DNA from: a virus
Virus record (IMG/VR): IMGVR_UViG_3300009130_000084
Coordinates: 1-34,190 of that record
DNA length: 34,190 nucleotides
Direction: 5' to 3' (one strand)
The position numbers and the translations under genes are program-made. The stretch's first letter is position 1; each line of letters begins with the position of its first letter. The notes beneath the pieces are model-generated. The model had not been told where the DNA came from and did no database searches. It worked only from the letters and a program-made list of their open reading frames with translations. Shown here piece after piece: positions 13,277 through 34,151 of this stretch.

Positions 13277-13535
13277 GGTTTGAACTCCTTATATCATTAA
13301 GTAGGATCTCTATATCATTCTCGTATTGTTGACCCTCTTCGGTACGTGGATCCCACGAATCTAAGATGTCTCGAATCTGCTGCTCAATTTTGGGAATATC
13401 CATATAAATCTCTGGCGACTCTGGCACCTCAACTCGTCGGGTGGGCCACGAGAAAGGAAGTCCACCGATAGCAGGGGTTTCGCTAACGATAACTTCCCGT
13501 ATGATATTCCTTATGTACTCTTTGTTTATTTTCAT
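13269..13535 (-). CDS. Small MKIS-type N-terminal peptide protein upstream of protease
   Basis: An 88-aa protein whose first 20 residues, MKINKEYIRNIIREVIVSET, belong to the recurrent MKIS/MKLT family. I-V-S-E followed by T (about 16-20) resembles a prohead-protease site. The remainder contains a Pro-rich stretch (GGLPFSWPTRRVEVPESPEI) and an acidic helix (IEQQIRDILDSWDPRTEEGQ). It overlaps the protease gene by 8 nt. T4 encodes small prohead-core proteins (gp67, gp68) between portal and protease; this could be a positional counterpart, but no similarity is claimed. No strong SD is visible. Confidence 0.6.
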   Translation of the reverse strand: MKINKEYIRNIIREVIVSETPAIGGLPFSWPTRRVEVPESPEIYMDIPKIEQQIRDILDSWDPRTEEGQQYENDIEILLNDIRSSNHE

Positions 13536-20145: not shown

Positions 20146-21279
20146 TTATTTAAGGAACTTCTTTAGTCCCTCAATACGCTTAGAGGGTCGCTTCAGTCCG
20201 CTGACCAACGTATAGGTGACGAGCTTATCCCTCTTATCATCTTCATAAATGCCGCGATGAATGATGGCACCGCCCGTCAAAGCGGCCAGCGTATCAAATC
20301 CAAATTCAATACTATCCATCAACCCTACAGTCTCTTCAAAGATTTCTTCGCCCCCGACTACAATACAGGCTGCGCCCGTCGCAGTGGTCAAATCAAAGCC
20401 CTCTGCCAGCAGAGTTTTCTCCAGATTTTTCTTAAGAGCATTAGAGATAGCTGTTTCACTCTCTACATCTTTGACGCTGGTAACACCCATAATCATGCAC
20501 CCAGACTGTCGCATAATGCTGTCGTAATCGGTAGCATCAAAGGTTGTGTATTCTGAATCCTGATTTGCCAGGACGTTAAAGACGTGGAACAAGCCCGCGA
20601 CTGTATTGTTGATGGTGGTCCAAAACTTCTTCACTGTCAGTTTAGGGTAAAGTTTTTTAATCTTCTCGTTGTCCACCATAATGAGGGGGGCAATCTTCCC
20701 TTTCTCTGCGAGCCCGCAAAGTTGGTTAATGCGATTGTGAGCATTCTTGGCTACCGTGGGGGAAGCCGACTCGCCAGCCGTTGGAAGGGAAGCTATGACG
20801 CCAACCCGCTGGTCCACATCTTCTACACCAATGTAAGTGAAGTACTTTTTGGCGACTTTTATCAGGGTATTAACTGTCCCTCCACCAGAACCACCCGAAA
20901 CCCCAAGGCAAATCATGATGCGATCAACGTTGGTCCCGAAAATTTCACGGAACTTGTTGAACACTTCTTGTTCTTTGCGTTCGATGGCTGCTTCGGCTTT
21001 GGCTTGGTCTTTGCCGGCACCCTGTTCACCATGTTCGTCCACTAAGAACTTTTGCTCGTCGGGAATATCCAATCCATTAAGATCTGAGCGAGCGGTATTC
21101 ACCGCCACCGTCTTGGTATAACCCATGTCGTAAAACGCCTTTGCCATACGACCGCCGCCTTGGCCAGCGCCAACTATAGCATAAGTGAGCGCGCCGCCAG
21201 ACTTATCCTCGACGGTTTCCTGCTCTTCATTTAAGTCGGGATCATAGTCCTCGATTTCAAGTGTAGGAATGTCTACCAT
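20146..21279 (-). CDS. FtsZ/tubulin-superfamily GTPase
   Basis: A 377-aa protein with the tubulin/FtsZ nucleotide-binding plan. After a 30-residue acidic N-terminus come AIVGAGQGGGRMAKAF (about 34-49), VAVNTARSDLNGL (about 58-70, like FtsZ 'VNTD.q.L'), the GTP signature LGVSGGSGGGTV (about 125-136), and a likely T7 loop FDATDYDSIM (about 247-256) with acidic residues D248, D251 and D253. Phage tubulins (PhuZ, TubZ) polymerise to move or position DNA or capsids; bacterial FtsZ drives division. Which applies is unknown. It is among late genes upstream of the terminase block, behind TAAGGAG. No long C-terminal FtsA/ZipA-binding tail is evident. Confidence 0.8.
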   Translation of the reverse strand: MVDIPTLEIEDYDPDLNEEQETVEDKSGGALTYAIVGAGQGGGRMAKAFYDMGYTKTVAVNTARSDLNGLDIPDEQKFLVDEHGEQGAGKDQAKAEAAIERKEQEVFNKFREIFGTNVDRIMICLGVSGGSGGGTVNTLIKVAKKYFTYIGVEDVDQRVGVIASLPTAGESASPTVAKNAHNRINQLCGLAEKGKIAPLIMVDNEKIKKLYPKLTVKKFWTTINNTVAGLFHVFNVLANQDSEYTTFDATDYDSIMRQSGCMIMGVTSVKDVESETAISNALKKNLEKTLLAEGFDLTTATGAACIVVGGEEIFEETVGLMDSIEFGFDTLAALTGGAIIHRGIYEDDKRDKLVTYTLVSGLKRPSKRIEGLKKFLK

Positions 21280-21839: not shown

Positions 21840-22289
21840 CTACCCCACGTCAACAGGGTCTTCAACCACCTCATCAGGGGGAACGACAGCCTCGGCTTCA
21901 GCCTGCGCGTCTTGAGCCTCTTGTGCCGCCGCGGCAGCAGCCGCAACAATGGTGCGTTTCAAAATACCGGCAAATTTCTTAGCTTGAGCGTCAGACAAAC
22001 CCATCTCCAGGGCAGCCTTTTCGGCACCTAAGCCTAAATTGGCGACGGTAGCCTGCTCGTCTTTAAATGCAATCAAATATTTAAGAAAAAGTCGTGAACC
22101 ATCCATGAACTCTTTGGGTCCCTGAAGTCTATTGACGGCAAGCCAGGCCGTTTTTCCATCCGCAGTTCCCGGCTCGAAAGGAACCACCCCTCTTTGACCG
22201 TCTTCCTTCAACAAACGGTGGATTACTTTCGGATTCTTCATTAACTCTTCTTTGAGGAGTTTGGTTAAATGACTTCGAGAAATCTTCAT
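21840..22289 (-). CDS. MKIS-type N-terminal peptide protein with Ala-rich helix
   Basis: A 149-aa protein starting MKISRSHLTKLLKEELMKNP, a member of the recurrent MKIS peptide family. R-L-L-K-E followed by D-G (about 25-31) resembles the L-K-E boundary of the MCP propeptide and the effector peptides. The body has a small folded region (DGKTAWLAVNRLQGPKEFMD; LFLKYLIAFKDEQATVANLG) and an Ala/Glu-rich helix (KRTIVAAAAAAAQEAQDAQA), ending in an acidic Pro/Val tail. No catalytic motif. GGGAGGG precedes the ATG, with an ACTATTTATA element 22 nt upstream. An internal virion protein is the working interpretation. Confidence 0.65.
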   Translation of the reverse strand: MKISRSHLTKLLKEELMKNPKVIHRLLKEDGQRGVVPFEPGTADGKTAWLAVNRLQGPKEFMDGSRLFLKYLIAFKDEQATVANLGLGAEKAALEMGLSDAQAKKFAGILKRTIVAAAAAAAQEAQDAQAEAEAVVPPDEVVEDPVDVG

Positions 22290-22332: not shown

Positions 22333-22518
22333 TTAAAGATGTTTCTTTTTCGACCGCTGGTGAAGTTGTGTCAAGGATGAGCGTACTCTAATTTCTTTTC
22401 CCTCGTAAATAATGGTTGCGATCTTCTCCCACTTGTGGTATTCTTTTAGGAGACCTACCTTCCATCCTTCGTGGTCCGACCATGTGTATTTAAATCTTAC
22501 AAGGTCGCCGGCTCTCAT
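22333..22518 (-). CDS. Small SH3-like basic protein (AGDLV paralogue 2)
   Basis: A 61-aa protein beginning MRAGDLVRFKYTWSDHEGWK, with VGLLKEYHKWEKIATIIYEG and a basic C-terminus (QRSKKKHL). The alternating hydrophobic pattern and the opening 'aGDLVrf' suggest a compact SH3/KOW-like beta barrel. The upstream neighbour starts with the same MKAGDLV motif and overlaps by 4 nt (ATGA), so the two are probably diverged tandem duplicates. Small barrels of this type are common in phages, and their roles are mostly unknown. Confidence 0.55.
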   Translation of the reverse strand: MRAGDLVRFKYTWSDHEGWKVGLLKEYHKWEKIATIIYEGKEIRVRSSLTQLHQRSKKKHL

Positions 22519-22739
22519 TCTTTATTTTTCTTTTTTGTGCCCGGCGATACGACAACTATGTCGGTTTCGTGAATGTCATAAATGCCGCCTTCGGCGACTT
22601 CCATCCTATCGTCGCTTTCGTAGCCGACCCACCACACATTCCAGTATCCAGGCAGGTCGCACGGACCCATTACAAGACCGTAGCCGCCTGAGCCACTGCT
22701 GCTGAATATAGTACTTTGGACTAAATCACCGGCTTTCAT
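22515..22739 (-). CDS. Small SH3-like protein (AGDLV paralogue 1)
   Basis: A 74-aa protein beginning MKAGDLVQSTIFSSSGSGGY, then GLVMGPCDLPGYWNVWWVGY and a short beta region (GGIYDIHETDIVVVSPG) with a basic tail (KKKNKE). The frame is also open to an ATG at 22751, but the ATG at 22739 forms a TGATG junction with the stop of the small upstream gene and aligns with its paralogue's start, so I prefer it. The predicted SH3-like barrel may bind protein or nucleic acid. No function assigned. Confidence 0.55.
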   Translation of the reverse strand: MKAGDLVQSTIFSSSGSGGYGLVMGPCDLPGYWNVWWVGYESDDRMEVAEGGIYDIHETDIVVVSPGTKKKNKE

Positions 22740-22906
22740 CATAGGTCCCATTCACTGTCCCATATATCTTTATTTTTTTTTGGTTGCCCGGCATCCTCTC
22801 GGAGCGTGGATATAATGGATAGTCCAGTAGGCAAACCAATGATCGTAGAAAGCAGCAAGCCGCTGACGTAGGGATTAAGCTCCATAAACCAATCAAGAAC
22901 AGGCAT
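22739..22906 (-). CDS. 55-aa single-TM protein (short gene)
   Basis: An ATG at 22906 opens a 55-codon frame to a TGA at 22741-22739, filling the gap between the cytochrome gene (stop 6 nt upstream) and the SH3-like gene (1-nt TGATG overlap). The product starts MPVLDWFMELNPYVSGLLLS, continues with the hydrophobic TIIGLPTGLSIIST (TM about 13-33) and ends in a charged, Lys/Asp/Trp-rich tail (KKNKDIWDSEWDL). The compact junctions at both ends and membrane-like composition support a real gene. An accessory lysis or membrane role is possible; no family recognised. Confidence 0.55.
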   Translation of the reverse strand: MPVLDWFMELNPYVSGLLLSTIIGLPTGLSIISTLREDAGQPKKNKDIWDSEWDL

Positions 22907-22912
22907 CGTGCT

Positions 22913-23251
22913 TTATTTGTCTCCGAAATTTATCCTAATGTAGTCGATTACGTTTAGGGCCTGCTCTACACTAAGAAGGTTCTTCCACGGTGGCATCCGC
23001 CCTTTACCTTCAAAAATACTTTGGAGCAATGTACCATCGGGTTGAGCGAGGATAGACTTATCATTCACAAAGTCCGCCCCTAACCCGCCAAGTCCAGTCC
23101 CGTCATAACCATGGCACGACGTACAGTACATTATATAGGTTCGTTCGCCGGGATGCCGTGCGGCATCGTGTTTGGTTACTTCTGTTATTCCCGCATCAGA
23201 CGGGGTGGACTGGGAGCATCCGATTAGGGCGACAAGTATTATCTTTTTCAT
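22913..23251 (-). CDS. c-type cytochrome, predicted lipoprotein
   Basis: A 112-aa protein, taking the ATG at 23251 that has AGGA about 7 nt upstream (the frame also extends to 23284). The N-terminus MKKIILVALIGCSQSTPSDA has a lipobox (LIGC, Cys12), so it should be lipidated and placed in the periplasm. The mature domain has the haem c attachment motif CTSCH (C43, C46, H47), and GRMPPW (M86) supplies the usual axial Met; it ends in the helix LNVIDYIRINF seen in small class I cytochromes. Maturation would need the host cytochrome c assembly system. It could shuttle electrons during infection; the target is unknown. A bacterial origin is likely. Confidence 0.85.
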   Translation of the reverse strand: MKKIILVALIGCSQSTPSDAGITEVTKHDAARHPGERTYIMYCTSCHGYDGTGLGGLGADFVNDKSILAQPDGTLLQSIFEGKGRMPPWKNLLSVEQALNVIDYIRINFGDK

Positions 23252-23267
23252 TTTACTTCCTAGGGGG

Positions 23268-23492
23268 TTATATCTCACATTCACACTCTTTTATTTTGTT
23301 CCGACGATTTCTGACTCTACACAAAGGGCACCGAATATAATGTGAATCACTTTCATAAAACATAGCCCAAAGTCTGGGAACCCTCAACGCTATTCTCCAC
23401 GGTCCAATAAACCACAGGATACAACACCGAGGTATATTAGAATGTCGTCCGCACTCCCAGTGGTATTTTATTTTATTGAGATACGAAAGCAT
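23268..23492 (-). CDS. Small Cys-rich putative zinc protein
   Basis: A 74-aa protein (ATG at 23492; in-frame ATGs at 23498 and 23516 are alternatives). It contains YHWECGRHSNIPRCCILWFI (about 11-30), then YIRCPLCR (about 55-62) and a final CEC. The 'CGR.S.IP.CCI.WF' pattern is, from memory, typical of a small uncharacterised phage/bacterial family with an apparent membrane-seeking Trp-rich segment and a CxxC zinc site. It overlaps the end of the SbcCD-like gene by 20 nt and precedes the cytochrome gene. The Cys and His could bind zinc. Function unknown. Confidence 0.55.
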   Translation of the reverse strand: MLSYLNKIKYHWECGRHSNIPRCCILWFIGPWRIALRVPRLWAMFYESDSHYIRCPLCRVRNRRNKIKECECEI

Positions 23493-26400
23493 ACCCATCT
23501 TGACGCTCAATGTCAATGGTCATATCGGCAATATCTTTGAGACTATCCAAGTGAGTAATCAAAAGCACAGTCTTGTAGTAGCCCTTAATCATTTCCATCA
23601 CTCGCATAAAGCCTTCAAGGTTTTCGGCGTCCAATGCTGTGCCTGGCTCATCCATAATCATAATGTCAGATTTTGGTAGGGTTGAGACGTTGGTTAGGGC
23701 GATGCGGATGGCGATGGCTGCAAGCGTTTTCTCTGCGCCGGAAGCCATCTCTAAAGGTCGTGCTTCGTACTTGGGGTGCTTGATGAAAATATCTAATTTG
23801 TTTTTTTCTGCCTCGAAAAACACCTCAAAGTCGGTGACGTTGGAAAGTACCGTGCTGATTTCCTCGTTGATGAGGGGGAGCATCCGCTTGACCACATCAT
23901 AGCTGATTCCGTTGGGGTGGCAACAACGCATAAATAAGTCGTAGGCCGCATACTCGGTTCGCAGGTCTTCAAGTTCCTGCTTCTTGTCTTCAATATTGGC
24001 AATCTGGGTTTCAATCCCGCCGTGTTGTTTTACAAGGTCGAGCACCTTGGCTTCGCAGATAGCAATGTCGCTCTCCATTTTGAGGGCTTTTTCCTTCAAG
24101 TCGTCCTGCTCTGTGATAAGTCCCTCTCGGTTCTCAATCGCTTCCTTGTTGAGTTCATAGACTTCAATCTTGGTTTTGATGCTTGCCATCTCGTTGGTGA
24201 GAAGATGGAGTTTGTTTTTGGTTTGCGCTAGAAGTAAGTCAAGGTTGGTTGCCTCGGTACAGAGGTCCGCGTATTCCTTATCTCTGTCTTTATAAAGTTG
24301 GTTAGCTGCCTCCAGTGCACTTACATCCAGCCCCTCAAGAGTGGTGAATAATTGAGAGCGGCGGCGTCGCCACACCATCAAAGTCCGGCGCACGTCCGCA
24401 AGAAGTTCCTTAGCCTCGTAAGCGTCCTTAATATATTTACGCAATCCGCAATCAGGACCACAAGGCACCTCTTCCAAGACAGCCAATTTCTTCTCATAGG
24501 TCTCTTTATTACGTTCTTCAAGGACTATTTGACTTTCTAAGGTAGAAAGCTCGTTCTGTATTTCTTCGCAGTGAGTAAGCTTCGTGCGAAGGGAGGTCAC
24601 ATCAGTATCCTCCAGAAGCTTCTTTAAGGTTGCCGCCTGAGATAGTACATCTTTCTTTTGGTTTTTGGTTTGGGCTTCCTTCAAATTAAGGGAGGAGTAT
24701 TCTTGTTTCGCTTTCTCCAAGCGACGAGACTCTTTGGTGATATTGATAATTTCAACTGGGGCTGAAGCAAACTGATCTTCGATCTCTTTAATCCGAAGAT
24801 TAATAGAAGACAAGTCGTTAGTGAAAGTGGTGCACTTCTTTTCTTGCTTCTTTCGCGCCTTATCATTATCGGACAGTTCTTGATGAAGTTGCGTAATATC
24901 TTCCTCAAAAGTATTTCCCTCTAATTTTCTTAACAGGGCACGAGTCTCTATACTGTCATTCTTGGAGGCTCGGAATTTCTTCTCAAACTGGTCAAGGTCT
25001 AAAAATTTGGCGAGGATTTCTTTACGCTTAGTTGAGCCCTCGTTGATAAAAGTCATCGCACCCATTTGACTGGACATGCTCGTCAACAAGAAATCCTCAA
25101 TACTCCCAAAAACTTTACGGATGGCTTTGTCTGTGCCGTTCCGGTCCAGCGAATTCATGCTGGTCTCTTCTTCTGTCGCTGGGTCGTAAATTGTAAATTC
25201 TACATCGGTCTTGGCTTCAAGGGTTTCTTCCCCATGAAGTTTCTTGGTGTATTTCTCTGAGTTCCGTTCGATGATGTAGGTCTTGCCGGCAATCTCGATC
25301 TCGGCTCGTCCGCAACCGGACGGCTTATTCTGGTTGATAATGTTCAGATTCTTACGATTGTTTTTGCTAATTGAATTATATACCGTATAAAGCATACTGT
25401 CAACAACAGAACTCTTGCCTGAGTAGTTCTTTCCGAAGACGCCGACGACGCCATTCAACTTATCAAAATTGATCGTGTTGCCCTCACCGTAATTGAAGAG
25501 GTTGTCCCACTCCAACTTTTTCAAGGACCACTCTACATTGCGGAGTCCAGCATCTTCGCCGTTTACGGTGGAGTCATACTTAGAATTAAGTTGAAATACT
25601 TTTTCTAATGTCTTATCGTCGGGTTCATACTCTTTTAAGTATTCCCGAATTAATCGCTCTTGAACTGCGGGGTCTCGTAGGTTCTCTGTGTTGCCGAGGT
25701 CGTCTACGTTTACGCTGTCTCGTTTTAGTCCCGCTTTATTGACGAATGAAAGGCTTTCAGGCTTGAACCGGCTCTTGGCTATATCCATCACTCGGCGGAT
25801 TTTATCAAGGGAAACCTTGTGATGAGTTACCACACGAAGCCGGGCCCCTTCTGGAATGTTTACTTTGCGAGGGAGATTTCCCTTCTCCGTCATCTCAATC
25901 GTCATAAAGGGCTTGACGTTTTTCACAAGGTGGTGCTCCACCGTGAAGTGAGTCTTGCTTTTAATATCCCAAATCAAGAAGCCCTTGTCGTTTGTTTCGC
26001 CGTGGTTTTGCTGAATGGTAGATCCGCAATAGCGAATCGTTCCGCTCTCGTTTAGGACTTGATTAGTCTTGTGAATGTCGCCGAGCATCGCATAATCAAA
26101 CTTATCAAACACCTTAATGTCGTGGTCGCCGTAGTCCATCACCCACCCAAGGTCGGTTTGACTATTATTAATTGCTCCGTGATAAAGAGCGATGTTGATA
26201 GCCTCTGTGTCTGTCGGGTCTGTCCAATTGGTCTCATCAAAGATTGACAAAACGTTTAGAGTCAGGTCATCTTCTAACTGGACCTCTCCTGAATACTTGT
26301 GTAGGATTAGGCTTGGGTGGTTGAGTGCTTCCACAATCGGAGTGATGGCATCTTGCCGACTACTGTTGCGTAGGTTACCGTCGTGATTGCCCAGGATGAT

Positions 26401-26625
26401 GTGAGTCTCGGCGATGTCAGCCAAGTTCTTTAGGAACTCAGTGGCTAATTCAAAATACTCTGGCGAGAGTTGTGTTTTTGTGTGAGCCAAATCGCCAGTG
26501 TGGACGATATAGTCTACCTTCTGTGCCCGCAGGGTCTTATAAATCTCCTCAAATGCTTTTCTATATTCATAGTGATATTTCAGATTTTTGATATGGGTAT
26601 CCCCGAAATGTGCAATCCGCACCAT
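23473..26625 (-). CDS. Fused Mre11/SbcD nuclease - Rad50/SbcC ATPase (gp47-gp46 fusion)
   Basis: A 1050-aa polypeptide joining two normally separate proteins. Residues 1-220 carry metallophosphoesterase motifs: GDTH (8-11), GDLAHT (44-49), GNHDG (79-83), H149 (YHG) and GDIHKT (182-187). Residues 366-1045 are an SMC-type ATPase: Walker A GKNYSGKS (398-405), coiled coils (about 545-715 and 735-895), ABC signature ASGAEKT (961-967), Walker B DIMIMDE (987-993), D-loop ALDA and H-loop H1025. T4 gp47 and gp46 resect DNA ends for recombination-dependent replication. The hook region is CGPDC (722-726), so three rather than the usual two residues separate the Cys. AAGGAG lies 8 nt before the ATG. Confidence 0.93.
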   Translation of the reverse strand: MVRIAHFGDTHIKNLKYHYEYRKAFEEIYKTLRAQKVDYIVHTGDLAHTKTQLSPEYFELATEFLKNLADIAETHIILGNHDGNLRNSSRQDAITPIVEALNHPSLILHKYSGEVQLEDDLTLNVLSIFDETNWTDPTDTEAINIALYHGAINNSQTDLGWVMDYGDHDIKVFDKFDYAMLGDIHKTNQVLNESGTIRYCGSTIQQNHGETNDKGFLIWDIKSKTHFTVEHHLVKNVKPFMTIEMTEKGNLPRKVNIPEGARLRVVTHHKVSLDKIRRVMDIAKSRFKPESLSFVNKAGLKRDSVNVDDLGNTENLRDPAVQERLIREYLKEYEPDDKTLEKVFQLNSKYDSTVNGEDAGLRNVEWSLKKLEWDNLFNYGEGNTINFDKLNGVVGVFGKNYSGKSSVVDSMLYTVYNSISKNNRKNLNIINQNKPSGCGRAEIEIAGKTYIIERNSEKYTKKLHGEETLEAKTDVEFTIYDPATEEETSMNSLDRNGTDKAIRKVFGSIEDFLLTSMSSQMGAMTFINEGSTKRKEILAKFLDLDQFEKKFRASKNDSIETRALLRKLEGNTFEEDITQLHQELSDNDKARKKQEKKCTTFTNDLSSINLRIKEIEDQFASAPVEIINITKESRRLEKAKQEYSSLNLKEAQTKNQKKDVLSQAATLKKLLEDTDVTSLRTKLTHCEEIQNELSTLESQIVLEERNKETYEKKLAVLEEVPCGPDCGLRKYIKDAYEAKELLADVRRTLMVWRRRRSQLFTTLEGLDVSALEAANQLYKDRDKEYADLCTEATNLDLLLAQTKNKLHLLTNEMASIKTKIEVYELNKEAIENREGLITEQDDLKEKALKMESDIAICEAKVLDLVKQHGGIETQIANIEDKKQELEDLRTEYAAYDLFMRCCHPNGISYDVVKRMLPLINEEISTVLSNVTDFEVFFEAEKNKLDIFIKHPKYEARPLEMASGAEKTLAAIAIRIALTNVSTLPKSDIMIMDEPGTALDAENLEGFMRVMEMIKGYYKTVLLITHLDSLKDIADMTIDIERQDGYAFVSQ

Positions 26626-26679: not shown

Positions 26680-27000
26680 TTAGTCCTTGTAATCGTCTAG
26701 GAAGCCAGGGGCAGCTAGCATTGCATACTCATATCCACCACGGATAAAATCCGGATGCTCTTTGGCTTTTTCTTTGGCCTCTTCTCTACTTGATGCCATC
26801 ACATGAACTCTAGTGCTCTCGATTGTATTTCGCCCGACATCTTTACCAATCTTAACTTCATACTCTTCTTTGGGTTTCTTTGACCCATAACTTGAGCCCC
26901 GTACATTAGAAGAAGGATGTCCTCCCGAAGTGTAGCCGGCGAATATCTCGTTAAGCTCTTCTTTGATTATCTTTCGTAGTTGAGACTTGGTGATTTTCAT
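26680..27000 (-). CDS. MKIS-type N-terminal peptide protein, function unknown
   Basis: A 106-aa protein starting MKITKSQLRKIIKEELNEIF, the clearest form of the recurrent MKIS peptide; E-E-L-N-E lies at about 14-18. A Gly/Ser-rich linker (GYTSGGHPSSNVRGSSYGSK) follows, then a small mixed alpha/beta domain (EYEVKIGKDVGRNTIESTRV; SSREEAKEKAKEHP) and a final segment RGGYEYAMLAAPGFLDDYKD. It overlaps the preceding gene by 4 nt (ATGA), with AGGAGAGGG upstream. Peptide, linker, domain is what an exported or packaged cargo protein would look like. Confidence 0.65.
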   Translation of the reverse strand: MKITKSQLRKIIKEELNEIFAGYTSGGHPSSNVRGSSYGSKKPKEEYEVKIGKDVGRNTIESTRVHVMASSREEAKEKAKEHPDFIRGGYEYAMLAAPGFLDDYKD

Positions 27001-27932
27001 GAGCTTAAACCCTCTCCTATATGTGTAAGTGCCGGACTTGCAATTAACCGCTGAAGGATTTCTTCTACAATATTATCAGAGCGGTTGCCCGGTCTGTTTT
27101 GTTTTCTGCTTGCGCTCGCCATCTGACGCTTGGCTTTGCGTTTCTTTTCTGCGCCGGCGGCAGGGCGTCTGGCTGGACGTTTCGATGCGCGTTCTTTAGC
27201 TTGAGCAGCTAAGCGCGCCTGTCTGTTGGGTCCAGGTTTTACCGAAGCCAATACTTTATCCCCTTCGTTTTTGAGTATTTCAACTTGTTGGGTGCGGTAA
27301 GCACGGGCTTCGGGAGATTTGGAAGTAGACTTTTGGAAGAAGTCGTATATAGCCATTAGATCTGCCGATTTTCCACTCCCAGCAAATTGAGTATCACCCC
27401 CTTCCGCACTTCCAGCGTGGGCTTTAATTTTGGCATGAGCCCATTTTTCGAGGGCTTTTTTGAGATTGCCTGCGCGGCCCCGAGGGTCTTGAGTTATTTT
27501 TCCGGCACGGTCAACATAATACCTGAGTTGTTCAGGATTGCCCAGTACTTCTAAGTTGCTATCCAACGCACTCACTATTCCTAAATAAACCAAAGCAGCT
27601 TCGCGATTATTATTGGGGAGATCCGCAACGTAATTGGCGGCAATCTTTTTGGCTAAGCGTTGTGCCTCGGCGTCATCTTTTGGAGGAAAACCAGCAGTCG
27701 GTGCCTGGTTAAGCGCATCATAATCAATTATAAAAGATGCCAACTCTTCGCGGGCTTCCGCTGCTTCGCCAGATTTGGCACCTTTATTTTGTTGAGCCAG
27801 TTGACGAAGACGGGCAGCTTCCTCTTTCCCAAAACACTGTTCGGGTGTATAACAGGGGACGTTTCGCTCGTTTAAAGTTTGCGTGATCGAGACCTGAATT
27901 AGTTCACGAAGGTGAGATTTCGTGAGTTTCAT
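26997..27932 (-). CDS. MKIS-type protein with basic, DNA-binding-like C-terminal region
   Basis: A 311-aa protein starting MKLTKSHLRELIQVSITQTL, a diverged MKIS peptide; L-N-E at about 20-22 could be a processing site. The middle (about 45-200) is helical and polar. Residues about 235-290 are extremely basic and Ala-rich (for example KRPARRPAAGAEKKRKAKRQ), resembling a histone H1-like tail. A basic internal protein that helps compact or neutralise packaged DNA is inferred. The protein ends in a predicted helix (IVEEILQRLIASPALTHIGE). C27 and C33 lie within a few residues of each other. It abuts the next gene upstream (2 nt). Confidence 0.6.
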   Translation of the reverse strand: MKLTKSHLRELIQVSITQTLNERNVPCYTPEQCFGKEEAARLRQLAQQNKGAKSGEAAEAREELASFIIDYDALNQAPTAGFPPKDDAEAQRLAKKIAANYVADLPNNNREAALVYLGIVSALDSNLEVLGNPEQLRYYVDRAGKITQDPRGRAGNLKKALEKWAHAKIKAHAGSAEGGDTQFAGSGKSADLMAIYDFFQKSTSKSPEARAYRTQQVEILKNEGDKVLASVKPGPNRQARLAAQAKERASKRPARRPAAGAEKKRKAKRQMASASRKQNRPGNRSDNIVEEILQRLIASPALTHIGEGLSS

Positions 27933-27934
27933 GG

Positions 27935-28267
27935 CTAGTCTTTGCCTGGTTTTGCCGATGCCTCTGTGGTTTCGATGCTGGGATATTTCGATTTCACGTG
28001 CCTTTGAACCGTCTTAACTAAACTGGAGAGGCTTCCCTCATACCACTTCGGAACGGATGAATACTGACTGGCACGTGCGAGAGCGTTGCGTGCTTGAGAC
28101 TCGCTATTGATTGGGAAATGATCCTTATCATCTTTTACTTTGGAGCTTTCAGCGGAAAATACTACATCACCGCGGTTGCGTACCTTAGCGTCCGGATCCT
28201 TCTTTTCCGAAAGGCGAGAAACCTCTTCTTGAACGAGTTGGCGTAGATAGGAGCGGTTGAGTTTCAT
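27935..28267 (-). CDS. MKIS-type N-terminal peptide protein with DUF6582-like domain
   Basis: A 110-aa protein starting MKLNRSYLRQLVQEEVSRLS; R-L-S-E precedes KKD (about 18-24). The domain contains SSKVKDDKDHFPINSESQAR (about 41-60), NALARASQYSSVPKWYEGSL and a last helix (LVKTVQRHVKSKYP). From memory, this 'kvKdgkDHFPi.te.qArnALaRv.qy...P.Wy.GsL..l...V...V..kyP' layout matches a small uncharacterised family (DUF6582-like) often inside larger phage proteins. Here it stands alone behind the peptide. Basic at the C-terminus; no catalytic role known. Confidence 0.65.
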   Translation of the reverse strand: MKLNRSYLRQLVQEEVSRLSEKKDPDAKVRNRGDVVFSAESSKVKDDKDHFPINSESQARNALARASQYSSVPKWYEGSLSSLVKTVQRHVKSKYPSIETTEASAKPGKD

Positions 28268-28276
28268 AGTATTGCC

Positions 28277-28489
28277 CTAGTCTTCGTCACGATCTTCGTG
28301 CCGGTCTTCGGCGCGGTCATGCTGATGCTTTAAGTAATCGATATGGCGATTCATCTCTCGGCGAATATCTTCAAGATGATCAACATCCATGTCATCATGC
28401 CTTTCCTCGTCATGAAAAGTGTCCTCTTTCATGACTTTGGTCAGTTCCTCGCGAATAACTTGTAATAGTTTAGATTTAGAGATTTTCAT
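28277..28489 (-). CDS. Small MKIS-type protein with charged His/Asp-rich body
   Basis: A 70-aa protein, taking the ATG at 28489. A longer frame to 28738 exists but runs through the upstream gene and would bury the MKIS peptide. The start MKISKSKLLQVIREELTKVM is almost identical to the next gene's peptide, at DNA level too; V-M-K-E is followed by D. The body is extremely polar (FHDEERHDDMDVDHLEDIRR; HIDYLKHQHDRAEDRHEDRD), one charged helix with about ten His, which could bind metal. It may act as a packaged peptide or spacer. GGTGG lies shortly upstream. Confidence 0.6.
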   Translation of the reverse strand: MKISKSKLLQVIREELTKVMKEDTFHDEERHDDMDVDHLEDIRREMNRHIDYLKHQHDRAEDRHEDRDED

Positions 28490-28493
28490 ATTA

Positions 28494-28913
28494 TTACCAC
28501 CCGTAGCCGCCTTGTCCACGAGCTTTCCTTGCGTACCACTCCCTATCGCCGGCTTTCTGTTGAGAGATTCTTTTACTCCCAATAGCTGTGCCGCCGCCGG
28601 GGATGCGGCTGTCCCTCGAACTCGTTGGGTTGCTCCATCGTGCAGGTCCGGATGATCCGTATCCTCTAGGATTGACGCCACTTGTAGAGTCGCCCAGTCG
28701 AGCAGCCTCTTCATCCGTATCCGGACGTTCGCCTTCAAGTTCGTCGTGACCGGCTTCCTTCAGAAGCTTATTAAGAGCACGGCGGTTTTGGCGAGCATAG
28801 CGCCAGAGCGAATCGATGTTCTTGTCTTCGCGTTCATCGGCTGACTCCTCCGCAAGAACAGCGGTAAGTTCTTCTTTGATGACCTGAATCAGTTTAGATT
28901 TAGAGATTTTCAT
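28494..28913 (-). CDS. MKIS-type N-terminal peptide protein, disordered Gly/Arg-rich body
   Basis: A 139-aa protein starting MKISKSKLIQVIKEELTAVL; V-L-A-E precedes ESADE (about 19-27), a possible processing boundary. A helical region (SLWRYARQNRRALNKLLKEA) is followed by a Gly/Ser/Arg/Pro-rich, disordered part (GVNPRGYGSSGPARWSNPTS) and a C-terminal KARGQGGYGW. The Arg/Gly/Tyr composition resembles nucleic-acid-binding low-complexity tails. It has a strong GGAGGG site and an ACTATTTATA element 23 nt upstream, so it may head a transcript covering the MKIS genes. Confidence 0.6.
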   Translation of the reverse strand: MKISKSKLIQVIKEELTAVLAEESADEREDKNIDSLWRYARQNRRALNKLLKEAGHDELEGERPDTDEEAARLGDSTSGVNPRGYGSSGPARWSNPTSSRDSRIPGGGTAIGSKRISQQKAGDREWYARKARGQGGYGW

Positions 28914-28935: not shown

Positions 28936-28945
28936 TATAAATAGT
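28936..28945 (-). promoter_or_regulatory. ACTATTTATA element heading the MKIS gene run
   Basis: The coding strand reads an exact ACTATTTATA, 22 nt before the ATG at 28913, in the 34-nt gap after the M50 protease gene. Its position before five consecutive MKIS-type genes suggests a transcription start for that run. Confidence 0.5.
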
Positions 28946-28947
28946 CA

Positions 28948-29751
28948 TTAAATCCCCGCAAGTCTCAAAACATCTGATGTTATTGCTAAAACGAAGATTC
29001 CGAGCACCATAACGGCACCAATAATATTTAGTACGTTGCGAGTCTTTACAGCCAATTTTTTCCGTCTTATTCCTTCGACTACAGAAATGCCGATATGTCC
29101 ACCATCTAATACTGGGATTGGTAGTAAGTTAATTACACCGAGATTGATGGAGAAAAAGGCAATCCAATCTATTAAGAATCCCCAGTCTCCTGTGTCTGCG
29201 CTGCGTTTTCTTGCTTGTTCCGTAAATTCATAAACGGCTACAGGTCCGCCCACTTCTTTAATAGACATAGGCTCTTTGCGAGGCATTGTTGCGGCTTCCC
29301 AAATGCTGCTATACATCTTCACCGATATTTTATGAGAGTAGCCAGCCGCTTCCATTACGCCGATGCGGTGGGGGATAGCTCCCTCTGGCACATAAACATC
29401 AGGGTATGGCTGCCCGACCAAGAGCATAAAATATAATGGCCACGGCAACAACAAATTAAACACCGGACCCATCACCGCTATGAAGGCTCGCTTCCATGCC
29501 GACACCGACCAAAAAGATTCGGGGTCATTTTTCTTGTTGTGATAATCATCTTCGCCACGAGGTTTGATGTAGCCGCCAAGAGGTATGAGCGACAAACGCC
29601 ACTCAGTTCCCCATAGTTTCTTCTTAAGGAGGACTTTCCCGAACCCTATTGAAAAACTATCAACGGCGACGCCCATTGCTCGGGCTGCGACATAATGTCC
29701 CAGTTCATGAACAAAAATTACTAAAACAATTATTCCAAGAAAGGTAAGCAT
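28948..29751 (-). CDS. M50 / site-2-type intramembrane metalloprotease
   Basis: A 267-aa membrane protease; the ATG at 29751 has GGAGG about 8 nt upstream (a TTG at 29769 is possible). The zinc motif HELGH (H15, E16, H19) lies in the first TM helix and the third ligand motif NLLPIPVLDGG (N208-G218, D216) in a later one; AVMGPVFNLLLPWPLYFMLL is another TM. E. coli RseP (about 450 aa) has two PDZ domains; here only about 40 residues (YPDVYVPEGAIPHRIGVM) lie in that place. Cellular S2P enzymes cut membrane-bound anti-sigma factors or signal-peptide remnants. A role in altering the host envelope stress response or maturing phage membrane proteins is inference. Confidence 0.88.
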   Translation of the reverse strand: MLTFLGIIVLVIFVHELGHYVAARAMGVAVDSFSIGFGKVLLKKKLWGTEWRLSLIPLGGYIKPRGEDDYHNKKNDPESFWSVSAWKRAFIAVMGPVFNLLLPWPLYFMLLVGQPYPDVYVPEGAIPHRIGVMEAAGYSHKISVKMYSSIWEAATMPRKEPMSIKEVGGPVAVYEFTEQARKRSADTGDWGFLIDWIAFFSINLGVINLLPIPVLDGGHIGISVVEGIRRKKLAVKTRNVLNIIGAVMVLGIFVLAITSDVLRLAGI

Positions 29752-30236
29752 AGGTTGCCCTCCTGACAAACGTTTGTGGATTGTGGCATGTGGTGTGGGA
29801 GTTGGTAATCCCTGAATAATATATTAGGACCCTTGGACCAGGCATCGTCTTCTTCGAATATTTTACACCTTTCGGCGGCTCTTCTTTGGGCGTCCATCGG
29901 AGTCCAGAGTTGCAGGTAGTTGTGTATCTTTTTATTTTCTTCCCGCAGTTTTTGCATCTCCGTGCTCTGGGCTTTAATGGTAGTCTCTAGGCTGTAGATT
30001 GCTTGACTGGCAGCCTTTTCCAGCCGTTCCTCTATATGGCTCTCATTCACGACATACAAAAGGAGACCCATAAAAATAGTACAAACAACAGCCGCCACGA
30101 CCGAAGTCCAAACGACTGCTGAAAGATAGTTAGTCTTAATCTTGGTAGCAGGCGGAGTGCTATAGTCCTGCGTGTATTGGACAGAGTTCCGTGCGTTTTC
30201 TCTGATTCTGTGGAATGCGTCCCTTTCTCGGCTCAT
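29730..30236 (-). CDS. Single-TM coiled-coil membrane protein
   Basis: A 168-aa protein with a cytosolic basic N-terminus of about 40 residues, one TM helix (VVWTSVVAAVVCTIFMGLLL, about 41-60), a coiled coil (EERLEKAASQAIYSLETTIK; AQSTEMQKLREENKKIHNYL) and a C-terminal region with three Cys (about 123, 157, 162) that would be periplasmic and could form a disulfide. The topology is spanin-like, but the globular Cys-containing end is unusual for spanins. The gene overlaps the protease start by 22 nt, so the two are probably coupled and could be substrate or partner. There is no visible SD; an ACTATTTACT box sits 2 nt before the ATG. Confidence 0.6.
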   Translation of the reverse strand: MSRERDAFHRIRENARNSVQYTQDYSTPPATKIKTNYLSAVVWTSVVAAVVCTIFMGLLLYVVNESHIEERLEKAASQAIYSLETTIKAQSTEMQKLREENKKIHNYLQLWTPMDAQRRAAERCKIFEEDDAWSKGPNILFRDYQLPHHMPQSTNVCQEGNLCLPFLE

Positions 30237-30270: not shown

Positions 30271-30591
30271 TCATCGCCTTATAAACCTCAAATCACCATC
30301 AGTATTGGCTATCTGGCTTGGTTTGGCTTCAAAGTCTTCACCAACATAGCGATATTCCCCTGGGTTGTCTGCCTCTTGTATATCGTCTTCATCTACAAAC
30401 GCATAAACTACATAGAAGTCCTCGTCATTATAGATTGCCGAAGTAACAGCGTGTTCGCCAGCAAACCTGCGGGACAAAGTTACATAATCATTATTCCTAA
30501 TAACTTTTGTGAAAGCAGGTTGTGCTCGGAAGATTTTTACCTTCTTCCCTTCTTTCAAAAACTTCCGCCACTCTGTTAGTAGTTTTTTCAT
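30271..30591 (-). CDS. Signal-cassette protein with small ART-like domain
   Basis: A 106-aa protein: residues 1-14 are the cassette peptide MKKLLTEWRKFLKE, followed by GKK. The rest (about 18-100) reads VKIFRAQPAFTKVIRNNDYV, TLSRRFAGEHAVTSAIYNDE and later NPGEYRYVG. An Arg in an early strand (R22), a 'DYVTLSrrFAgeHA' segment and a late Glu (E79) resemble small ADP-ribosyltransferase-like folds (the 'R-S-E' plan), though I cannot confirm an active site. T4 packages ADP-ribosyltransferase Alt in its head, which makes the idea attractive. If processed after L-K-E14, a domain of about 92 residues would be delivered. Confidence 0.6.
   Translation of the reverse strand: MKKLLTEWRKFLKEGKKVKIFRAQPAFTKVIRNNDYVTLSRRFAGEHAVTSAIYNDEDFYVVYAFVDEDDIQEADNPGEYRYVGEDFEAKPSQIANTDGDLRFIRR
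30551..30591 (-). repeat. Signal-cassette DNA repeat, copy 1
   Basis: A 41-nt segment ending at the ATG and encoding MKKLLTEWRKFLKE minus its last base. Used as the reference copy, it matches copies 2-5 at 38, 40, 38 and 33 of 41 positions, counted by eye. It lies at the start of a gene whose downstream part is unrelated to the other carriers. Confidence 0.85.
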
Positions 30592-31016
30592 TGTTCCATC
30601 ACCATGGTGATCACCATTATTGGGTTTCCGCCACTATCTTTGCCGACAACCTCAAAGCCATATCCTTCATACCAATCTACTAGACTGAAACCTTCTGCTT
30701 GGCTTTGTCCCAAGTCGGCTATGAGTATTGTAGTGTAAGCACCCGCATCAGCGGCTTGGCTCATAAAGTCTTCAACCAATTGGTTCCCAACACCTTGTCC
30801 TCTGTTTTCTTCGGGGACAAAAGCATTTTTCATTATAGCAACAGGTAGTTCAAGGTTTTGTATCACCTCTTCACTAACACCTTCTTTGTTCGCCCAGTTC
30901 ATTAGCCGGTCGATATTGCTATGAATAACACCACCGATAGTAGCACCTTCTATATCAATTGATATTTCTTGGGCTTCTTTCAAAAACTTCCGCCACTCTG
31001 TTAGTAGTTGCTTCAC
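30588..31016 (-). CDS. Signal-cassette protein with GNAT acetyltransferase domain
   Basis: A 142-aa protein starting with GTG (31016): cassette peptide MKQLLTEWRKFLKE, then AQE. The rest is a compact GNAT domain: LPVAIMKNAFVPEENRGQGV (about 57-76) with the acetyl-CoA loop R-G-Q-G-V-G (72-77), helix NQLVEDFMSQAADAG, and WYEGYGFEVVG (115-125), the usual 'fYek.GFe..g' end. GNAT enzymes acetylate amines on proteins or small molecules; some toxins acetylate aminoacyl-tRNA. The target here is unknown. It overlaps the ART-like gene by 4 nt. L-K-E followed by A fits the T4 prohead protease consensus exactly. Confidence 0.8.
   Translation of the reverse strand: MKQLLTEWRKFLKEAQEISIDIEGATIGGVIHSNIDRLMNWANKEGVSEEVIQNLELPVAIMKNAFVPEENRGQGVGNQLVEDFMSQAADAGAYTTILIADLGQSQAEGFSLVDWYEGYGFEVVGKDSGGNPIMVITMVMEQ
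30976..31016 (-). repeat. Signal-cassette DNA repeat, copy 2
   Basis: Identical to copy 1 at 38 of 41 positions, including third codon positions across the centre. The differences are at the 5' end, where ATG is replaced by GTG. Confidence 0.85.
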
Positions 31017-31412
31017 CTAATAAACCTCTGTGTATTTGTCCGCAAATGGTTCGGTATCAAATTGTTCTGCCGCTGCGTCAAATATAATTTCTGAACCATT
31101 ATCATTAATAACGATCCAGTCGTGGACGACGCCATCGCCGCCATCATCGAACAAACCATCTCTTACATCTCGGGCATCAAACCCAGCGTCGGATAAGGCT
31201 TTTAGCCAGAAGTCAGTATTCGCATCGCAGGAATCAAGCGGACGACCTATGTCGCACAAATACTGCTGTGATTGTTCATAGTTATCCGCTATTGCTTTGG
31301 CTAACTTAGGCGATGGGTTTTGAGATAGCCATATGGATTTCATCCACTTAGGTTGCCCGTCACCCTCTTTCAAATACTTCCGCCACTCTGTTAGTAGTTT
31401 TTTCATTTTCAT
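31017..31412 (-). CDS. Signal-cassette protein with possible transglutaminase/papain-like fold
   Basis: A 131-aa protein beginning MKMKKLLTEWRKYLKE, then GDG (ATG at 31412; the ATG at 31406 gives the standard cassette start). The domain has CDANTDFWLKALSDAGFDAR (C62 onward), VHDWIVIND (H97) and EIIFDAAAEQFD (D112). A Cys before a helix, then His-x-Trp and 'fDa.a.QF', is the order of Cys-His-Asp triads in transglutaminase-like and related cysteine peptidase folds. C53 is a second Cys that could be catalytic or structural. The assignment is by pattern only. It abuts the GNAT gene without a gap and overlaps the upstream gene by 4 nt. Confidence 0.6.
   Translation of the reverse strand: MKMKKLLTEWRKYLKEGDGQPKWMKSIWLSQNPSPKLAKAIADNYEQSQQYLCDIGRPLDSCDANTDFWLKALSDAGFDARDVRDGLFDDGGDGVVHDWIVINDNGSEIIFDAAAEQFDTEPFADKYTEVY
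31366..31406 (-). repeat. Signal-cassette DNA repeat, copy 3
   Basis: Matches copy 1 at 40 of 41 positions; the single change converts the Phe of RKFLKE to Tyr. The gene's first ATG lies 6 nt further upstream. Confidence 0.85.
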
Positions 31413-31867
31413 CTAACAGAATCCTGGGGGTTACCTGTTAAATTTGCTAAAGATATATGAAAAATTCTTTCAGGTTCAGGGTCTGTGTTTTTCTCACCGA
31501 GGAGTTCCATAACCTGCCGCACGTAGTCTCGCATCTCATCTTGGTTTTCTAACTCAACAGCCCAAGACATTTTTCCTTCATCCGTTTTTACCTGAATTTC
31601 TTTATCGAAGTCAATGATCGGCTCAGGGGCGTCAGGAAGTTCCATCTTTTTTATTTGTTTCCGATGAGGTTTTAAGATACTTTGATGAACCAGAGTTACG
31701 TGTAAAGCCTTTTCAGGTAAACTTATTGCATTGGGATCCCCTATTTCCTCCTGTAGTCCCTGAATCTGCTGAACCAAGTCCGGATTTAGCTTTACTTTAA
31801 GAATGCCGCTGTATTTAGCTTCGGCTTCCTTCAAAAAGTTTCGCCACTCTGTTAGTAGTTTTTTCAT
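31409..31867 (-). CDS. Signal-cassette protein with 2H phosphoesterase domain
   Basis: A 152-aa protein: cassette peptide MKKLLTEWRNFLKE, then AEAKYSG. The body has two H-x-T/S motifs about 80 residues apart, LHVTLVH (H56, T58) and RIFHISLANLTG (H137, S139), the hallmark of 2H phosphoesterases (LigT, CPDase, AKAP7). Members cleave 2',3'-cyclic phosphates or cyclic oligonucleotides. The T4 anti-CBASS nuclease Acb1 belongs to this superfamily and destroys cyclic-nucleotide alarm signals. A packaged enzyme of this kind could act at once after injection. Substrate unknown. L-K-E followed by A fits the protease consensus. Confidence 0.75.
   Translation of the reverse strand: MKKLLTEWRNFLKEAEAKYSGILKVKLNPDLVQQIQGLQEEIGDPNAISLPEKALHVTLVHQSILKPHRKQIKKMELPDAPEPIIDFDKEIQVKTDEGKMSWAVELENQDEMRDYVRQVMELLGEKNTDPEPERIFHISLANLTGNPQDSVR
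31827..31867 (-). repeat. Signal-cassette DNA repeat, copy 4
   Basis: Matches copy 1 at 38 of 41 positions. The first 25 coding bases from the ATG are identical to copies 1 and 3. The gene starts in a TAATG junction with the preceding stop. Confidence 0.85.
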
Positions 31868-32208
31868 TAGCTGACCTTTTCAAGTCCGCCCAAGTATCTC
31901 ACTTTTTTGACGCCTGGCACTGTTTTGATTTTATGGAGAAGTTTCTTTGCTCCTGACTTCGGGCTTTCCAGTTTTTCGGGGATAAACTTGATTATTATTT
32001 CCGAAAAATAATCTGAGTCGTTTTCTTCCGCTGTGTCTGGTTCTTGCTTGAGTGTGACTATTTCCGCAATAGCTCGAATCTCTGAGAAGGTCTGGCTCTT
32101 GTCACCGCCAACATCCTTGGAGATAACCAACGATGCACGGAACTCGTGCATTCTTTCGTCATAATCTTCTTTCAGAAACTTTCGCCATTCGTTGATTAGC
32201 TTTTTCAT
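31867..32208 (-). CDS. Signal-cassette protein with ferredoxin-like unknown domain
   Basis: A 113-aa protein: diverged cassette peptide MKKLINEWRKFLKE, then DYDERMHE. The domain reads FRASLVISKDVGGDKSQTFS, EIRAIAEIVTLKQ, an acidic loop, EIIIKFIPEKLESPKSGAKK and a final helix/strand (LLHKIKTVPGVKKVRYLGG). The strand-helix-strand pattern with 'i..ipGVk.V.yl' suggests a ferredoxin-like fold; from memory it is a common unassigned family in aquatic phages. P1' after L-K-E is Asp, less favourable than Ala/Gly in T4. No catalytic residues evident. It overlaps the NUDIX/ART gene by 4 nt. Confidence 0.65.
   Translation of the reverse strand: MKKLINEWRKFLKEDYDERMHEFRASLVISKDVGGDKSQTFSEIRAIAEIVTLKQEPDTAEENDSDYFSEIIIKFIPEKLESPKSGAKKLLHKIKTVPGVKKVRYLGGLEKVS
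32168..32208 (-). repeat. Signal-cassette DNA repeat, copy 5 (diverged)
   Basis: Matches copy 1 at about 33 of 41 positions while keeping EWRKFLKE, so it is the oldest or most drifted copy. Both synonymous and conservative changes are present. Confidence 0.75.
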
Positions 32209-34151
32209 TCTTCTTCATCCTCATACCATTCGGGATACTCAAAAACGCCCTGACCCAAAGTGTCCTTTGTCTCTATATAGATGGCAGCTTCCTCTGGGGT
32301 CGCTTCCATATACTCTCCCAAGCGAGCGTCATACATTTCCGAGGTGCTCATAGTCTCTTCTGCGTTCATCAAAATGTCGTAGGCAAAAATAGCAGAGGCC
32401 GGAACTCTTCCCTTGTAACCATAGACGCCCACTTCACGAGACAAAGAAAAACTATCAGTGTCTAAGTTGCCAGCCTGGCGACTTCTCAGGGTGTGACAAA
32501 TATAATCATAACAACCTGTATCGCCTGCTCCCATATCTACATCATAGTCGGGAATCAATAGGTCAGGATCCGGAACCTTAAGATTCACTATGACAGGATC
32601 TCCTCCGACTTTGCCGGCTGTATGCACAGCGTGGTGCTGAGCTTCTTCCATTCGCGAAGAAAAGAAAACGGCGTTGGGGTGAGATATGCCTTCGTAGTTA
32701 GTCTTAGATTCTCCGGGTACCAATCCAAACTTTAAAATGTTTTCAAGATAGTTGCTAGTCGTGCCGTGATACATTACATCAGCAACTTTTCCCCTGGCTC
32801 CATAAAAAGGAACTTCTTCTTCGTCGCCCCAATTGTAATCGGCTGGATAGACGATTTTACGAGCGCCAAGCTCTTTAACTACTTTCTTAACAAGGATTGA
32901 AGATTTGGGGTCTAACTTAAAACTTCCAATCTGCTCTATGTGTAAAGTCCTTCCACCTTCAAGAAGTGAGCCAAATAAAACATCCATACGGTTTTCATTG
33001 TCAAGTTCGTCCTTGAGATCATAGTATCCTTCCCACTCTGCCTCTATTCCAATTGAGTCATTGATATCGTCACGGACTTCATCGGAAGGAATATCTCCCA
33101 TACGCCAGATGTTTTCTCTGTAAGCGACAATGTTATCGCCGTCGGGGTCTCCTTTGACGAACATCTCAGAAATTATTTTATTTTCCACGATCCTTATCTG
33201 AACATCATAATTGTGGAACTGTTCTAACTCTTCTGCCTCTTCTGAGAAGGCCCAGCGTTCGATATCTTCTGGGAATATACCTGTCACTTGAACTTCAACA
33301 TCAGTATCCCGATCTTCAGGATCTCTGACGAAGCCATACTTTTCCATATCATGGGCTATTTGTTCCTCGCGAGATAACGCAGAGGAGCCAATCCTCTGAA
33401 TATCTCTAATCTCTGCTTCTGGAAAAAAGTCTTGAATTTGTTGTTGAATGAAGTCTTGCCAGTTTTCGGAAATTATTCGGTGTTCCGACAAAGGTATATC
33501 TTCCATAGCTGTCAAAATAGCATCTTTATATTTTGGTGTCAGATTATCATAGCCTGGGATCTCTTGGATGTCAACCATTTTATACTCAGTGTGTTCTGGG
33601 CTTAATCTAATCTTTCCTTCCGGAAGGCTTGTGATATAGAATGTCTCATGCTTGTAAGGGTAAAGTTCATTTACCTCGCCGATCACCAGCCCAGTTTCTT
33701 CTTCTACTTCCCGCCGAAGTCCGACTTCTTTATCTTCACCCACATGAATATGTCCACCCGGCAAATCCCACTTGTTAGGAAAATTCTCGTGCAGATCTGA
33801 TCGTTTGATAAGCAAAACTCGTCGTCCATCTTGAATGACCACCTTTGTTACCTCTGGGCTATCTTCCTGCTTTTCTCCAATGGCGACCTTGATCTGTTCG
33901 CCAATCATACCTTTTAACAATTGAGAAAAATCTTGGCTTTCGTTTTTCCCGAACAATTGTTTATTCCAGTCGTTGGCTTCTTGGTCTTGTGTTTCCCACT
34001 CTTTTGGCTCTTTTGCTTTTGATTTCGTCATTGGCTTCTTTTTGTAAGCACCTTGAGCAGTCAGGTATCCTTCAATTGCACTGCCCTGGCTGTGCCTCAG
34101 ATCATACTCGGGCTTATCTTTTATGCTTTCATAAAGATCTCGAAGATACAT
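32205..34151 (-). CDS. Multidomain NUDIX hydrolase / ART-like protein
   Basis: A protein of at least 648 aa. Residues about 97-215 form a NUDIX domain with a complete box from G133 to L155 (GGHIHVGEDKEVGLRREVEE is its first part), preceded by FPNKWDLPG. Residues about 240-320 include IGSSALS and DTDVEVQV, which might be a nucleotidyltransferase-like domain (low confidence). Residues about 455-600 look ART/KptA-like: VMYHGTTSNYLENILKFGLV, AVFFSSRMEEAQHHA and REVGVYGYKGRVPASAI. NUDIX enzymes can hydrolyse ADP-ribose or NAD, so pairing with an ART suggests NAD/ADP-ribose chemistry. The ATG at 34151 lacks a nearby SD and the frame stays open to the window edge (13 more codons, ending GKVSPKFL), so the true start may lie outside. 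Confidence 0.75.
   Translation of the reverse strand: MYLRDLYESIKDKPEYDLRHSQGSAIEGYLTAQGAYKKKPMTKSKAKEPKEWETQDQEANDWNKQLFGKNESQDFSQLLKGMIGEQIKVAIGEKQEDSPEVTKVVIQDGRRVLLIKRSDLHENFPNKWDLPGGHIHVGEDKEVGLRREVEEETGLVIGEVNELYPYKHETFYITSLPEGKIRLSPEHTEYKMVDIQEIPGYDNLTPKYKDAILTAMEDIPLSEHRIISENWQDFIQQQIQDFFPEAEIRDIQRIGSSALSREEQIAHDMEKYGFVRDPEDRDTDVEVQVTGIFPEDIERWAFSEEAEELEQFHNYDVQIRIVENKIISEMFVKGDPDGDNIVAYRENIWRMGDIPSDEVRDDINDSIGIEAEWEGYYDLKDELDNENRMDVLFGSLLEGGRTLHIEQIGSFKLDPKSSILVKKVVKELGARKIVYPADYNWGDEEEVPFYGARGKVADVMYHGTTSNYLENILKFGLVPGESKTNYEGISHPNAVFFSSRMEEAQHHAVHTAGKVGGDPVIVNLKVPDPDLLIPDYDVDMGAGDTGCYDYICHTLRSRQAGNLDTDSFSLSREVGVYGYKGRVPASAIFAYDILMNAEETMSTSEMYDARLGEYMEATPEEAAIYIETKDTLGQGVFEYPEWYEDEEE

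Follow-up and report, generated by a model that had tools for sequence, protein, structure and literature searches.

We identify in a virus record a gene coding for a small c-type cytochrome, probably a lipoprotein, and we consider it probable that this gene is an accessory moron of a lineage of large T4-like myophages, its product being a host-matured electron carrier that would support respiration during infection. Such a gene would be an unusual means for a virus to control the energy supply of its host. The window, that is the whole stretch of DNA analysed, is a 34,190-base virus record in which all substantial genes lie on the minus strand. By computation we obtained the assignment to a cytochrome family, the conserved motifs, the location in phage genomes, the accessory distribution, the signs of purifying selection and the mosaic divergence.

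The cytochrome reading frame and its motifs

The original prediction of a c-type cytochrome reading frame with its motifs is borne out, with the strand corrected to minus. Specifically, the 112-aa frame, the LIGC lipobox, CTSCH and GRMPPW are every one found at 22913-23251(-), and a Shine-Dalgarno-like sequence precedes the ATG, where a good one had been claimed. Translation of this frame reads MKKIILVALIGC / SQSTPSDAGITEVTKHDAARHP / GERTYIMYCTSCHGYDG...EGKGRMPPWKNLL...YIRINFGDK, and its elements are as follows.

22913..23251 (-): gene for a single-haem c-type cytochrome lipoprotein, 112 aa, stop included (PF13442 match and syntenic homologues in eight other IMG/VR contigs)
23256..23261 (-): Shine-Dalgarno-like AGGAAG, 4 nt 5' of the ATG (read from the sequence)
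23216..23251 (-): residues 1-12, predicted short signal peptide with lipobox L-I-G-C12 (lipobox kept in 8/8 aligned)
23150..23215 (-): residues 13-34, variable linker (mean pN 0.19, pS 0.41)
23111..23125 (-): haem-attachment motif C43-T-S-C46-H47 (C, C, H and G48 invariant in 8/8 aligned)
22985..23002 (-): G84-R-M86-P-P-W89, with the Met predicted to be the sixth ligand of the haem, and a conserved Trp (G84, M86, P87 and W89 invariant in 8/8)

The window protein matches the Pfam family Cytochrome_CBB3 (PF13442) with E 7.7e-12 and 45.8 bits, well above the curated cut-off of 27 bits, and the homologues in contigs L138 and L151 plus five scanned cytochrome-bearing records also score above this cut-off. 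Cytochromes in the PDB match it by sequence at E 3e-11, the best being CcoP subunits of cbb3 oxidases; the PHROG families gave no match. Residues C43, C46, H47, G48, M86, P87 and W89 are all invariant in an alignment of homologues (n=8), and a chance origin is excluded, since homologues on eight other contigs keep the motifs unchanged or almost unchanged. By profile and motifs the window protein is a c-type cytochrome with predicted haem ligation, M86 being the putative sixth ligand from its place in the family. An AlphaFold model built from eight sequences is of low confidence (pLDDT 66, pTM 0.57), and the fold neighbours listed for it are c-type cytochromes or cytochrome domains that form part of redox enzymes, at weak scores (best Foldseek E 0.02, VIA Z about 5). 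The model is in line with the sequence evidence and contributes little beyond it.

The domains that carry c-type haem are versatile, and this versatility would also suit some other periplasmic job for the protein, for example to bind a gas (NO, O2), deal with peroxide or capture haem. The invariant Met in the usual sixth-ligand place argues against such a job, since it predicts a closed electron-transfer haem and not an open ligand-binding one, and we regard this alternative as very unlikely.

The listed open reading frame includes an alternative upstream GTG start that would add 11 extra codons. However, two relatives (L003 and L010) have an in-frame TGA immediately 5' of 'AAA ATG', and in L138 the cytochrome start overlaps the preceding gene as ATGA, which supports the ATG as the start. 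All eight aligned homologues retain a lipobox, in the form LIGC, LLSC, LTGC or LAGC, after a charged n-region. The lipobox Cys is at residue 12-13, which is shorter than usual for signal peptidase II substrates, and the predicted signal of 11-12 residues ahead of the Cys is very short for this enzyme. The PROSITE lipoprotein rule asks for a Cys at 15-35 and would thus miss the signal of the window protein, where the Cys is residue 12. From the conserved lipobox we consider the protein to be probably lipid anchored through Cys12. By the E. coli sorting rule, Ser at +2 directs a lipoprotein to the outer membrane; the Ser at +2 here would predict the same, which fits an inner-membrane carrier less well and counts somewhat against it.

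Genomic setting and accessory distribution

The genes of the window include a T4-type tail sheath, a major head protein, a portal and a large terminase (terL). The cytochrome gene has the following surroundings.

23473..26625 (-): SbcD/SbcC fusion-like gene, upstream bound of a variable interval (phrog_77 / phrog_100, interval comparison)
22739..22906 (-): membrane protein of 55 aa with one predicted transmembrane pass, immediately downstream of the cytochrome (relatives' gene order)
22333..22751 (-): two small genes, r at 22515-22751 and q at 22333-22518, in the same low-divergence block as the cytochrome (mean pS 0.31 and 0.49 vs terL 0.84)
20146..21279 (-): FtsZ/tubulin-like gene, outside the variable interval on its downstream side (TIGR00065, E 9e-13)

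A scan of IMG/VR revealed six contigs from six metagenomes with cytochrome proteins 73-88% identical to that of the window. The cytochromes of L138 and L151, which were reached via terL/tubulin-like contigs with the window genes mapped onto them, are 48-49% identical. A further scan added L195/L196, where the cytochrome is 41% identical and has a lipobox, and L197-L199, where it is 43% identical and has an ordinary signal peptide (AYA|D) without a lipobox, the signal type being read from the sequence. The head protein of the L197 and L199 contigs is 64-65% identical to that of the window, indicating that these are related phages. In one related phage, whose capsid protein is 65% identical, the cytochrome is a soluble, non-lipoprotein form and sits elsewhere in the genome.

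The window and eight close or intermediate relatives have the cytochrome upstream of the terL/portal block and on the same side, and where both flanks are present the gene lies between the SbcD/SbcC fusion and the small genes leading to the tubulin-like gene. This synteny with phage structural genes in independent contigs confirms that the gene is phage-encoded, as had been proposed. The proposed rarity of such genes is also upheld among catalogued phages, where tblastn of the window protein against 50,697 phage records gives nothing at E<=1 and a query with a divergent homologue finds a single unannotated cytochrome, in a 735-kb phage that is deposited twice.

The interval from SbcD/SbcC to tubulin is itself variable, with the cytochrome present in 5/27 distinct intervals of relatives (L010, L011, L012, L138 and L151) and other small genes in its place in the remainder. 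It also occurs in the window and in contigs that are truncated on one side (L005; L008/L009), and PF13442 is absent from near-full relatives of 172-190 kb. This distribution indicates that the cytochrome is an accessory gene; a core gene is rejected since most relatives lack it.

In L138 and each of the six close relatives the gene for the 55-aa membrane protein adjoins that of the cytochrome, but it also occurs where the cytochrome is missing. A first scan had hinted at exclusive co-occurrence, but distant versions lack the cytochrome and the idea of a dedicated partner was therefore dropped. Neither Pfam nor PHROG gave a match to this protein, and no FixQ/CcoQ-like match was found. On the upstream side, one frame of 1050 aa encodes both SbcD and SbcC (phrog_100 + phrog_77), and in L012 the two again share a single frame. 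The tubulin-like protein is 93-94% identical in close relatives and 85-97% identical in nearly all related contigs found, with catalogued phages giving only a 22% match (Bacillus phage G); L005 lacks the gene at the corresponding place.

Several further features of the window were observed. An RseP-like site-2 membrane protease is encoded at 28948-29769(-) (TIGR00054, E 2e-55), which is unusual in a phage and is also encoded in several of the related phages at 59-91% identity. The 648-aa protein at 32205-34151(-) has a Nudix domain joined to a region matching phrog_11974. An amphipathic N-terminal peptide (MKKLLTEWRKFLKE or MKITKSQLRKIIKEEL) is common to runs of unrelated small proteins, which are located as follows.

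30271-32208, 13269-13535, 21840-22289 and 26680-28913 (-): small proteins with an amphipathic N-terminus

Together with a prohead-protease-like gene at 12680-13276, these peptides resemble T4 capsid-targeting sequences, and the proteins that bear them may be packed into the head and injected. A CTATTTATA/GTATTTATA motif lies 14-23 nt 5' of ORF starts at minus-strand positions 28943, 22318, 13937 and 7519, and these four sites are all of the minus-strand copies of TATTTATA in the window. The window has six TATAAATA/TATTTATA sites versus 1.2 expected by chance, and the CTATTTATA/GTATTTATA motif is possibly a phage promoter.

Selection, exchange and origin of the gene

In the close group the haem domain has a mean pN of 0.06 and a mean pS of 0.42 (pN/pS about 0.15), with values for the whole cytochrome gene of about 0.14-0.38 by pair. 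Purifying selection on the haem domain is strong, and the low pN relative to pS indicates that it is the part of the protein that is kept by selection. These values bear on the alternative of a lipoprotein for superinfection exclusion or envelope modification in which the haem fold is a mere scaffold. Small receptor-blocking lipoproteins of the envelope are commonly encoded by phages, and other lipoprotein-like genes are present in this interval in relatives (L093:6835-7290 and L107:7522-8028), both of which favour such a role. However, the linker and signal vary with the haem domain frozen, inclusive of C, C, H, M and W, and related phages have a soluble form. The frozen haem domain, variable linker and soluble form together speak more for a haem-based function than for one as a lipoprotein alone, and we judge this alternative to be unlikely. 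The soluble version in a related phage also suggests that the haem domain, and not the anchor, is the constant function.

In the run of genes from the cytochrome to the small genes r, q and o inclusive, silent-site differences average 0.31-0.49 per site, relative to 0.74 for the tubulin-like gene and 0.84 for terL, where they are saturated. The lower silent divergence of the cytochrome block than of terL fits an exchanged cassette, one that was likely passed from phage to phage after the terL lineages had separated, with short genes or codon constraint as possible contributors to the difference.

No close cellular source was found among 398 Pseudomonadota genomes, where the best match, about 41% identical, is one domain of a protein of 362 residues that has two CxxCH motifs. 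A pattern-based scan of 84,980 species yielded a single match (32% identity), and matches on plasmids reach at most 29% identity. Cellular respiratory genes are known in metagenomic virus data sets (PMC3877843), which gives some ground for viewing the gene as host DNA in the assembly, by contamination or chimerism, or as a recent unselected passenger copy. Contamination or chimerism was also the event that the original prediction had named as fatal to it. It is contradicted, and rejected, by the conserved arrangement of the cytochrome with the phage genes for terL, portal and tubulin, which recurs in independent contigs. The pN/pS of the haem domain and the failure of genome scans to find a near-identical cellular homologue argue in the same direction, so that we give this explanation as a whole almost no credence.

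Regarding the host, which had been conjectured to be an aerobic Gram-negative bacterium, large lipoproteins are encoded beside the cytochrome in two contigs, at L197 3563-5931 (secreted, appearing VWA-type) and at L195 4960-5925 (a trypsin-like protease, phrog_9683). By eye these look Myxococcota-style, which is a possible host clue.

Proposed role and relation to known systems

For export, lipidation, haem loading, redox partners, electron transfer and benefit to the phage we infer the following course. The cytochrome would be exported and lipid anchored in the envelope through Cys12, and the host's own cytochrome maturation system would attach haem to CTSCH with Met86 as the sixth ligand. 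The haem domain, on a flexible linker, would then function as a one-electron carrier from host donors to a terminal oxidase or a reductase of the host, and would thereby sustain both respiration and the proton motive force of the infected cell. The nearest sequence matches of the cytochrome are cbb3-oxidase CcoP and other electron-transfer cytochromes. Against a carrier are the unusually short signal peptide, the low confidence of the structural model and the fact that most relatives manage without the gene.

The phage records searched, several of them fragmentary, contain neither PF01578 (cytochrome assembly) nor PF00115 (haem-copper oxidase, COX1), and no redox partner for the cytochrome was found in them, which also counts against a carrier. 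The cytochrome could therefore only plug into host machinery, and the lack of PF01578 suggests that the host cytochrome c maturation system would be needed. This also weakens the earlier suggestion that the phage supplies a whole respiratory route, and a complete phage route is rejected for these records. The presence of a stand-alone CcoP-like domain on contigs where oxidase and assembly genes were not found could also suit an interfering cytochrome, which would divert electrons or compete for haem or maturation and so shut down or re-route host respiration. Full haem and Met ligands under purifying selection suggest a working carrier, but weakly so since a decoy could keep them as well; we consider interference rather unlikely. 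The sequence itself fits either direction of benefit, with host respiration supported or diverted.

Regarding known systems, the window protein is like CcoP/FixP (PF13442, TIGR00782) in its single cytochrome domain type with CxxCH ... MPxW. However, CcoP possesses a second haem domain and a membrane helix, as opposed to the one domain, one CxxCH and lipobox of the window protein. CcoP itself is rejected as an identity, with TIGR00782 scoring 31 bits versus a cut-off of 180 for this 112-aa protein with one CxxCH. The 735-kb phage LR756501.1 (L176 3827-4243), which ranks with the largest phages known, has an unannotated lipoprotein cytochrome (PF13442, E 4.7e-12) that is likewise a phage gene, with lipobox LGSC, CKFCH and MPP. 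It is unlike that of the window in having about 24-31% identity, an unrelated location and a separate position in a domain tree, which is built on about 75 residues and has modest support. Phages of the 735-kb size class are predicted to infect Bacteroidetes, and the main text of that study makes no mention of cytochromes (PMC7162821).

The published neighbours that we found in the literature on phage cytochrome c are SoxD and a viral cbb3 oxidase subunit I. SoxD, a thiosulfate oxidation auxiliary, is likewise a c-type cytochrome domain in phages, but it is part of the SoxCD enzyme and some phage copies are without haem motifs (PMC8190135), in contrast with the cytochrome of the window, which retains all motifs and would be a stand-alone carrier. 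The Indian Ocean cbb3 oxidase subunit I genes (PMC3474794) come from the viral fraction and belong to the same cytochrome oxidase branch, but they are a different subunit known from reads or short sequences, whereas the phage gene order of the window cytochrome is known. A study of oxygen-depleted waters reports no cytochromes or respiratory carriers in its phages (PMC8115048), and cyanobacterial phages carry photosynthetic electron-transport genes (PMC5082946). Phage auxiliary electron-transport genes are thus an already known kind, and c-type cytochrome domains in phages have precedents; what is new is a stand-alone, lipobox-bearing cytochrome that is kept and probably exchanged within one phage group.

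For non-cyanobacterial hosts there are few direct, context-backed examples of phage respiratory electron carriers. A conserved, selected and probably exchanged phage cytochrome c opens the question of whether phages manage host respiration to test with one small protein. More tentatively, widespread large uncultured phages may exchange a dedicated respiratory carrier cassette, anchored or soluble according to need, that re-wires the electron flow of the infected cell. If this is true, it would be the virus that sets how its dying host respires.
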